From the NCBI GenBank assembly GCA_003154775.1, contig PMES01000129.1:8415-61506 (forward strand): a DNA stretch of 53,092 nt, given 5' to 3'. The stretch is from Acidobacteriota bacterium. Lineage in GTDB: Bacteria > Acidobacteriota > Terriglobia > Acidiferrales > UBA7541. Each line of letters begins with the position of its first letter. Position 1 is the first letter of the stretch. Of this stretch, positions 34,551 to 36,793 are shown one piece after another. The position numbers and the translations under genes were made by a program. The notes under the pieces were generated by a model. It had not been told where the DNA came from, did no database searches, and saw only the letters and a list, made by a program, of their open reading frames with translations.

Positions 34551-35348
34551 ATGACCAAGACATTTCTGCAGGCCGCCGTAGAAATTGCCAAAGGAGCTGG
34601 CGCTATCTTGCGCGAAGAGCTGGAACGCCCTCCGGACATCGCCTACAAAGGCGACTTTGACCTGGTGACTCAGGCCGACCGGCGCTCCGAAGAATGGATT
34701 GTGCGTCGCTTGCAGGAGTTATTCCCGGAGCACGCCATCGCCGCGGAAGAAGGCACGGCAAAGGATAAGGAATCGGAGTACCGCTGGCACGTGGATCCAC
34801 TCGACGGCACAACGAATTTTGCACACGGCTATCCCTGCTTCTGCGTCTCGATGGGGCTGGCCCGCGAAAATGAACTCGTTCTTGGAGTCGTTTACAGCCC
34901 CGTGTTCGACGAGTTGTTCACGGCGCAACGCGGCGAAGGCGCCCACTTTAACGGGAAAAGGATTCGCTGCTCCAGGATCGATACGCTGAAGAACAGCCTG
35001 TTGTGTACCGGCTTTCCGAATCACAAGCGCCACTCGCATCCGAATATTTATTACTACTGGGATTTCACATTGAAATCGCACGGTGTGCGCCGCGACGGCT
35101 CGGCGGCGCTGGACCTGGCCTACGTCGCCGCCGGGCGGTTCGACGGCTTCTGGGAATTCGGGCTCAAGCCTTGGGACTCTGCCGCAGGCGTCTTGCTGGT
35201 CGAAGAAGCAGGCGGCACAATAAGCGACCTTGAGGGCCAGCCGTATACCCTTGGCGGCAAGTCCATCCTGGCGTCAAATGGGCTGATCCACGCTGAAATG
35301 AAGCAAGTAGCTGCCGAGATCGCCAAGCGCCCCATGCCGCCACTGTAG
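34551..35348 (+). CDS. Inositol monophosphatase family protein
   Basis: Mg-dependent phosphomonoesterase, 265 residues. Metal motifs are AAEEGT (E), DPLDGTTNFAHGYPCFCVS (about residue 82-100) and the C-terminal GLKPWDSAAGVLLVEEAGG. The same fold covers inositol monophosphatase (SuhB), fructose-1,6-bisphosphatase-like and histidinol-phosphatase enzymes. The GTTNFAHGYPCF motif fits inositol-1-phosphatase best, but the in vivo substrate is open. Monocistronic. Confidence 0.87.
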   Translation: MTKTFLQAAVEIAKGAGAILREELERPPDIAYKGDFDLVTQADRRSEEWIVRRLQELFPEHAIAAEEGTAKDKESEYRWHVDPLDGTTNFAHGYPCFCVSMGLARENELVLGVVYSPVFDELFTAQRGEGAHFNGKRIRCSRIDTLKNSLLCTGFPNHKRHSHPNIYYYWDFTLKSHGVRRDGSAALDLAYVAAGRFDGFWEFGLKPWDSAAGVLLVEEAGGTISDLEGQPYTLGGKSILASNGLIHAEMKQVAAEIAKRPMPPL

Positions 35349-35396
35349 GATCCCACGAGGTTTCCCCATCCGCCCGCGCGTGGGTCCGTGTTGTTT

Positions 35397-35567
35397 TCAG
35401 CAGGAGGGAGTTGTAAAACCTACCCCCCCTGTTTTTGCGCAAGAGTGCGGAAGTTGTTGAAGGGAAAAGAGATATTGGGATTGCAACTCTCCAAGTGTCC
35501 GCAAGAATATCAAAACTAAGAGCTTACGTGTGCCCACGGAATTAGGAAAAACCTCCATGAGGCTCAT
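35397..35567 (-). CDS. Possible small protein downstream of the consensus promoter
   Basis: 56 codons from ATG 35567 (an in-frame TTG at 35585 would add six). Sequence includes VGTRKLLVLIFLRTLGELQ and ends GGVGFTTPSC. It has one mildly hydrophobic stretch and no Shine-Dalgarno sequence. Its only support is position, about 87 bases after the predicted start of a consensus promoter. The transcript could equally be non-coding. Confidence 0.3.
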   Translation of the reverse strand: MSLMEVFPNSVGTRKLLVLIFLRTLGELQSQYLFSLQQLPHSCAKTGGVGFTTPSC

Positions 35568-35660
35568 GGTGCAGAGCGACTCCAATCTGAATCAATGAAA
35601 AGGGTATCTTCTAGAGGAACTGCTCGGGAAAAGGACGAGACGCAAATTAACTCATCGAGA

Positions 35661-35688
35661 ATTATACATCAAAGTAATTATTTGTCAA
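35661..35688 (-). promoter_or_regulatory. Perfect-consensus sigma70 promoter on the minus strand
   Basis: On the minus strand TTGACA (35688-35683) and TATAAT (35666-35661) are both exact consensus hexamers with a 16-base spacer. Predicted transcription start near 35654, running leftwards toward the 3' end of the monophosphatase gene, opposite to both neighbours. Confidence 0.7.
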
Positions 35689-36001
35689 GGAGAGTTTTCC
35701 CTGCGGAACAGAGTTGTCAGATGGTTCCCGGGCGTGAGGTTGGAGTGACGTAGAAAACCCCGGTCAAACATCACAATGAAGAGTGATTAAGCTCACACAG
35801 TTTTGTGGGAAATGACCCAGTGCGGGCTTCATTCTGAAACTCAGGCGCGCCCTATCGAATTTCGACACCCAAAATAAACGATTCATTTTGTTGGTTTTGC
35901 AGGGAATCGACCAAAACGACCGGATTACTCCAGTTAGGCCTTCGAGTTGCCTTTCTGCTAAGGCGAAGCGAAACGGAGAGCGGAGAAAAAGGAAAGGCCA
36001 T

Positions 36002-36793
36002 ATGCCAAATTCAATGGTCGCGGAAAGACCGGAAGTCTCCAGCCCGCGGCAAAGCACGGAACTGCGGAGCAGCAGGACGCGCACTCCGTACGGCTTGCCG
36101 ATCGAGGATGATTGCAGGAGTTGCAGGGTCCGCAGCACCGAGTTCTTCTGCGGCTTTTCCGAGCCATCGCGAGCCGCCTTGCGCCCGATCATGCACGTGA
36201 GCACGTACCCGGAAGGCGCGTTGATCGTGATGGAGGGGGAAGCGGCGCGGGGCATCCACCTGCTGTGCCAGGGCCGCGCGAAGCTGCTGACCACAAACAG
36301 CGACGGCAAGACTTTCATCCTGAAGATCGCTAATGCCGGGGAAGTGATCGGCCTGAACCCGATCCTGACGGGAATGCCGTATGACATCACGGTGGAAACG
36401 CTGCAGCCGTGCCAACTGGCGTTCATTCCGCGCGACGAGTTTTTGAAGTTCATCAAGGAACACAGCGACGCCTCATTTCAGGTAGCGCAACACCTGGGCC
36501 GCGACTGCCAGATGGCCTATGACGTCATACGCTCGATCGGGTTGAGCAATTCGGCCGCGGAAAAGCTGGCAAGGTTTTTGGTGGAGTGGGCCGGCGATGG
36601 GCGTCCCAGCGACGGGGTGGTGCGCGTGAAACTGGCACTGACGCATGAAGAAATGGCGCAATTGATCGGCTGTTCGCGCGAAACCGTAAGCCGCACGCTG
36701 AGCGAATTCAAACGGCAGCGCCTGGTGGAAGTGAATGGCGCGACACTCGTGGTGCGCGACCTTGAAGCGCTGGAAGATCTCGCGGCCAACTAG
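36002..36793 (+). CDS. Crp/Fnr family regulator, FNR-like with four candidate Fe-S cysteines
   Basis: 263 residues from ATG 36002 (GGAAAGG site). The N-terminal extension carries C38, C41 and C50 (C-x2-C-x8-C). C137, in TLQPCQLAFIPRDEF, aligns with the fourth ligand of E. coli FNR just before the IPFETL segment. The cyclic-nucleotide-fold barrel follows (YPEGALIVMEGEAARGIHLLCQGRAKLL). The HTH is HEEMAQLIGCSRETVSRTLSEF, with the E-x-x-S-R signature that reads TTGAT half-sites in FNR. An oxygen-sensing role is likely but unproven. Monocistronic; precedes a convergent radical SAM gene. Confidence 0.85.
   Translation: MPNSMVAERPEVSSPRQSTELRSSRTRTPYGLPIEDDCRSCRVRSTEFFCGFSEPSRAALRPIMHVSTYPEGALIVMEGEAARGIHLLCQGRAKLLTTNSDGKTFILKIANAGEVIGLNPILTGMPYDITVETLQPCQLAFIPRDEFLKFIKEHSDASFQVAQHLGRDCQMAYDVIRSIGLSNSAAEKLARFLVEWAGDGRPSDGVVRVKLALTHEEMAQLIGCSRETVSRTLSEFKRQRLVEVNGATLVVRDLEALEDLAAN

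Follow-up and report, generated by a model that had tools for sequence, protein, structure and literature searches.

The exact sigma-70 consensus promoter on the minus strand at 35661-35688 of the window, by which we mean the whole stretch of DNA analysed (53,092 bases), reads as the promoter-bearing head of one divergent member of an extragenic repeat family whose dispersed copies carry promoters and occur chiefly in a single genus of subdivision-2 Acidobacteria; we assign this reading a probability of about 0.68. On the best reading, these are promoter-carrying interspersed repeats of a new family, Correia-like in effect and without demonstrated terminal repeats. The element runs from a consensus or near-consensus sigma-70 promoter through a leader (approximately 140 nt in the window) and units of approximately 25–30 nt to a short G-rich tail. 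RNA polymerase would be expected to start near 35654 and to read through the array in the direction of the neighboring monophosphatase gene's 3' end, yielding a non-coding transcript. Since the promoter heads a repeated gene-less element scattered through genomes, non-coding RNA probably does start here; a coincidental match, or a regulator dedicated to the neighboring gene, is less probable. The features are listed in Table 1.

Table 1. Features of the element in the window, with the basis for each assignment
Feature	Position	Strand	Basis
-35 hexamer TTGACA	35683..35688	-	exact match; same in G035; first four bases agree in 59/59 heads (head model seeded on exact sites)
-10 hexamer TATAAT, 16-nt spacer	35661..35666	-	exact match; same in G035
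expected transcription start	35654	-	predicted from usual spacing, ~7 nt past the -10 box
candidate small hairpin CTCG-9nt-CGAG in leader	35623..35639	-	read from sequence; G035 keeps both arms
two-unit repeat array with G tail	35419..35517	-	match to model R3 and to profiles independent of the window array
array unit 1, TTTTGATATTCTTGCGGACACTT	35493..35515	-	alignment A8
array unit 2, CTCTTTTCCCTTCAACAACTTCCGCACTCTT	35441..35471	-	alignment A8
tail, GCGCAAAAACAGGGGGGG	35423..35440	-	alignment A8

Pattern scanning of the window confirmed the exact minus-strand promoter reported in the preliminary description. TTGACA-N16-TATAAT matched at 12 of 12 bases with a spacer of 16, was the sole match to TTGACA/TATAAT at N15–19 in the 53,092 bases, and appeared in none of 100 dinucleotide shuffles of the window. 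The genome from which the window derives (G000; 4.63 Mb, 150 contigs) contained seven exact promoters, and the reversed-pattern control gave none. The gap is flanked by the monophosphatase gene (34551-35348, plus strand; PF00459) and a Crp/Fnr-type regulator gene (36002-36793, plus strand; PF00027 and PF13545). No gene was recognised in 35349-36001, and searching Pfam and NCBIfam at E 0.001 with a minus-strand frame of 62 amino acids gave no match. Together with the lack of an Rfam match, this supported the earlier statement that the promoter fires into a gene-less gap. We regard 35661-35688 as likely to be a real promoter, and its product, initiated in a gene-less gap, would be a non-coding RNA. 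The same description had placed the promoter upstream of an FNR-like regulator: the adjacency held, but transcription would run away from the Crp/Fnr gene, so that the promoter is divergent from it, not upstream in the usual sense.

A search of 101 genomes with the whole gap gave a nearly full-length match only in the nearest relative, G035, at 82% identity; at 18 further loci the matches covered just 26–106 bases, all within window positions of approximately 35419-35530. In G035, which carries the one known ortholog of the window copy, both hexamers were identical while the spacer and flanks had changed. Loss of the hexamers in close relatives had been named beforehand as an outcome that would speak against the site, and they are kept in this 82%-identical gap, although this is weak evidence alone: the chance of twelve bases staying unchanged at that identity is approximately 0.09 (0.82^12), which is not significant by itself. 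Among 30 loci with monophosphatase orthologs, the downstream scan covered 28 (all but L056 and L057; L038 was read with a misplaced end), and a site of at least 11/12 was found only in G000, G035, and G020. The G020 site precedes a different gene, and its homology with the window element was not established.

Across 36 genomes of the genus, the exact pattern TTGACA-N16-18-TATAAT occurred at 100 sites in 27 genomes, compared with two sites for the reversed pattern. Many of the exact sites shared conserved sequence upstream of the promoter as well as a spacer resembling wAyrgTACCnATATGc. Head model R1, with 110 candidates scored per genome, matched in at least 23 of the 36 genomes and at least 24 times in G000, whereas the 13 genomes without a head match contained 13 of the 100 exact sites, a contrast that is partly by construction because R1 was built on exact sites. 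The exact promoters matched the head model in 12 of 12 cases in G028 and in seven of seven in G013, again partly by construction of the model. In 14 aligned G000 copies, the -35 hexamer TTGACA was present in all 14, and within the -10 hexamer T1, A2, A5, and T6 were invariant, with only positions 3 and 4 varying. Over 59 heads, the numbers of matches per position were 59, 59, 59, 59, 58, and 49 for the -35 hexamer and 55, 59, 55, 47, 57, and 58 for the -10 hexamer, figures inflated by the seeding of the head model on exact sites. None of the 59 heads lay inside a gene called by a crude gene caller. Dispersed intergenic copies with an internal promoter, a trait of Correia-type miniature elements, were found.

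When 200 genomes of the class were searched with stricter filters, head matches were obtained in 13 genomes of the same genus, with one weak match each in two others; the tail model was searched within the genus. A scan of named species returned 27 stretches with the spacer-bearing promoter, comprising 21 from Acidobacteria (13 of them gp2 and one gp1) and six from other phyla, and those six showed no flanking head sequence by eye over 60 nt before and 120 nt after. The genus carrying the repeat is placed in the subdivision-2 (gp2) Acidobacteria. Locus L012 (G048:C39), from another genus of the family, contained a window-like array near 1501-1551 with a 10/12 promoter 192 nt upstream and no head-model match; because of this array, the repeat family is mainly, not strictly, that of one genus. 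BLASTn of the element against plasmids or phages gave no match.

The array in the window begins approximately 145 nt downstream of the promoter on the same strand, and it was recognised in an alignment of 30 sequences as two units ending in a G run. Model R3, built from 28 arrays with the window locus and its G035 ortholog left out, gave a single match at E 1 or better in the window, at 35517-35419 on the minus strand (53.1 bits, E 7e-16). As 14 of the 28 sequences had originally been obtained by likeness to the window array, the test was repeated with the other 14, whose profile recovered the window array at E 2.7e-11; a profile of nine of these, with own-genome copies removed, recovered it at E 1e-10. 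Neither the 14- nor the 9-sequence profile found a second place in the window below E 1. In the genus, with 109 candidates scored per genome, R3 matched in at least 30 of the 36 genomes and at least 18 times in G000.

Tail arrays without a listed head match were observed at G000:C17:53461-53542 and G000:C97:18732-18810, and tails far outnumbered heads in G003 (at least 42 versus at least 2), G007 (at least 36 versus at least 5), and G010 (at least 37 versus at least 3). At L227, L228, and L204, several different array modules followed one head in series, each with its own G tract. Tail modules of sister species, such as L094:1215-1354 and L204:2275-2414, contained an inverted unit between two direct ones, and a C-rich loop faced the G tail; these modules could form alternative hairpins, for which no covariation was seen.

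The order of promoter, leader, array, and G tail recurred in G000 and its genus. Of 16 G000 stretches, 14 aligned along the element, from a point ahead of the promoter as far as the G tail, the two left out being divergent. Of the 15 listed G000 tail matches (from at least 18), 13 followed a listed same-strand head at 172–194 nt, 5' end to 5' end, in a hand comparison that included some loci used to train the models. An array lay behind six of the seven exact G000 promoters by alignment and behind four of the seven by the strict tail pattern; across the genus, the latter lay behind the exact promoter at 9 of 28 loci, compared with 1 of 28 on the other side. Among the 59 heads, 46 had the strict tail pattern, the tail ending 168–520 nt past the start of the head model.

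The comparison was also made from the tail. Among 17 arrays found via the window tail (one of 18 loci was dropped for want of upstream sequence), five had a site of at least 10/12 on the same strand within 400 nt upstream, compared with none on the opposite strand. Four of these five sites lay 170–216 nt upstream of the array, and two of the loci, L015 and L018, looked orthologous. When five array loci with a promoter site or a near-qualifying one (L012, L015, L018, L019, and L020) were compared with the head model, only L020 gave a match, partial and of 13.7 bits, which indicates that many arrays have heads unlike the model. Head model R2, built without the window and G035, missed the window head at default filters, and with filters off its score was 11.4 bits (window-wide E 0.008), the alignment covering nothing beyond the promoter. 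Because the window head resembles other heads only weakly outside the hexamers, the membership of the window copy rests on its tail and on order, strand, and spacing.

At other loci the element faces a downstream gene, for which it would act as promoter and leader. A tentative alternative, compatible with the repeat-family reading and somewhat less probable than even odds, is that the element is a portable promoter and 5' leader for neighboring genes and that the window copy is stranded. Orientation in six sister species is in keeping with this idea: the next gene lay on the strand of the head for 34 of 41 heads (41 examined of at least 78 matches, with a crude gene caller), and between gene pairs of the same direction the head ran with the genes in 21 cases and against them in two (sign test, p = 7e-5), or in approximately 17 and two cases (p = 7e-4) when recognised orthologs (xseA and the L196/L221 pair) were counted once. 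However, G000 and G035 showed the opposite trend, with one head with and eight against (p = 0.04), or one to seven (p = 0.07) when the window copy and its ortholog were counted once. No one leader role accounts for every copy, and the window copy itself faces no gene.

Individual genes gave a similarly divided picture of the portable promoter. A head was located approximately 385–575 nt upstream of fumC on the same strand at 9 of 30 loci, with TTGACA intact in eight of the nine, and heads preceded xseA in five genomes by eye; the identity of fumC and xseA comes from one protein each named by NCBIfam. The fumC orthologs were gathered by protein, 36 genomes being matched and 30 loci examined. 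The gene was, however, selected because heads had already been noticed upstream of it in five genomes; of the nine with a fumC head, four (G023, G009, G010, and G007) lay outside those five. The other 21 of the 30 fumC loci, two of which had hardly any upstream sequence and one of which was that of the window's own genome, had no head match, and G035 fumC likewise had none. With no downstream gene for the window copy, its local effect is probably small and antisense at most; such an RNA could act antisense to the monophosphatase 3' end.

We consider it unlikely that the family consists of miniature transposons or REP-type elements moved by a tyrosine (Y1) transposase, although one genome holds many alike copies and Y1_Tnp genes were present in 29 of the 36 genomes. 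Five Y1 genes lay within approximately 1.2 kb of heads in a hand tally, against approximately 0.6 expected by a rough hand estimate; these were at G035:C121, G035:C167, G023:C20, G009:C117, and G000:C33, the heads at G035:C167 and G000:C33 being weak. Terminal inverted repeats were not supported at the ends of the own-genome consensus, since 67 of 200 shuffles were as good, and the copy ends were ragged in the G000 alignment. Tails also showed no clear excess at transposase loci, being present at 2 of 30 (the best-scoring loci, several of them IS200-like) versus 2 of 46 loci of the monophosphatase and regulator genes once the window and G035 were excluded. At E 0.1, tails occurred at 16 of 80 control loci in total, but four of these were the window element and its G035 ortholog seen twice and ten were fumC, so the comparison was limited to the other 46 loci.

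Correia repeat enclosed elements of Neisseria are short dispersed repeats with sigma-70-like promoters; most are located upstream of genes, and they can drive expression of adjacent ones (PMC10969869). Compared by description, they share with the present element the character of dispersed repeats carrying promoters, whereas here no terminal inverted repeats were found and the tail is built from modular units with G tracts. Tyrosine transposases with flanking repeats, and other palindromic repeats, are reported from Acidobacteria, including Koribacter (PMC3733652). REP/BIME sequences are similar to our element in being short extragenic units, in some relatives as inverted pairs; the element differs in being headed by a consensus promoter and in that a transposase link was not established. 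Many short repeats are reported from Solibacter (PMC3174227), with no matching description in the part of that paper available. The literature search found no description of the element; most subscription papers were outside it, so this is weak evidence of absence.

That the promoter serves a dedicated regulatory RNA of this locus, either antisense or redox-linked, appears doubtful, below the transposon reading in probability. In its favor, G035 retains the promoter and downstream sequence at 82% identity, transcription would be directed toward the monophosphatase 3' end, and a Crp/Fnr-type regulator adjoins. Like intergenic sRNA genes with their own promoter, the element has a promoter, a length of a few hundred nucleotides, and no constrained frame, but it differs from them in being multi-copy, with no supported fold and no Rfam match, and the same architecture stands at many unrelated loci. 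The redox link suggested in the preliminary description was not supported: other copies lie at unrelated genes, and none of 18 other regulator loci had a site of at least 11/12 within 900 nt upstream, two having 10/12. Nothing ties the promoter to the Crp/Fnr gene.

Folding analysis gave no better values than shuffles for the leader (z 0.81) or the full transcript (z 0.21). A folded sRNA was rejected on these grounds, and the inverted-unit hairpins of relatives were without covariation. Three single inverted-unit sequences of relatives gave z values of -2.25, -2.79, and -1.30, the first two folding better than their shuffles. Covariation analysis of 19 tail modules of relatives, which are not window-type arrays, with two drawn structures gave no excess over shuffles, and the RNAalifold covariation term was 0.22. 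Rfam searches gave no match for the element region to E 5 or for ten related loci to E 1, and the whole window at gathering scores contained tRNAs only. An intrinsic terminator listed by the scan at 35569-35555 on the minus strand was likewise set aside: terminator-like sites occurred at chance frequency (8 found, 7.0 expected), and its stem was just partly kept in G035 by eye.

The alternative that the transcript encodes a peptide of 56–62 residues, also raised earlier, was rejected on the codon changes between G000 and G035, which fell at all positions and were alike in three frames. Over 54 codons of the 62-aa frame, five differences were synonymous and 18 non-synonymous, and the changes by codon position numbered 11, 7, and 9, with similar counts in the other frames, revealing no coding constraint.

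A chance consensus match is very improbable: although 35400-35899 is AT-rich (41.5–48% GC in 200-base windows), the shuffles gave no exact promoter, the sites of the genus far outnumber their reversed-pattern controls, and G035 keeps the hexamers with a changed spacer.

These soil bacteria are known mostly from assembled metagenomes. If the promoters are functional, a single repeat family would account for almost every perfect-consensus promoter in several of the genomes, and would be a clear example among bacteria of promoters being provided genus-wide by an interspersed repeat. Many array units contain CUCCUU, which we take to resemble the anti-Shine-Dalgarno end of 16S rRNA. We offer as a long shot that the repeats are mobile transcription modules, largely private to one genus, that bring a full-consensus promoter and a transcribed array, that their CUCCUU RNAs could act in trans on translation starts, and that some insertions have become standing promoters of housekeeping genes, fumC and xseA among them. 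The locus also carries a caution: a strong promoter facing nothing can be a repeat and not a private sRNA gene.

The regulator gene has a conserved upstream palindrome of its own, separate from the exact promoter. This palindrome, AGTGATTAAGCTCACA, at 35782-35797 (region 35770-35820, plus strand), is of the Crp/Fnr type GTGA-N6-TCAC and lies approximately 205 nt before the gene. It is likely to be an autoregulatory site of the regulator gene. By eye, the palindrome and its flanks were kept upstream of related regulators in G035, G020, G018, and G019, and were degenerate in G031.
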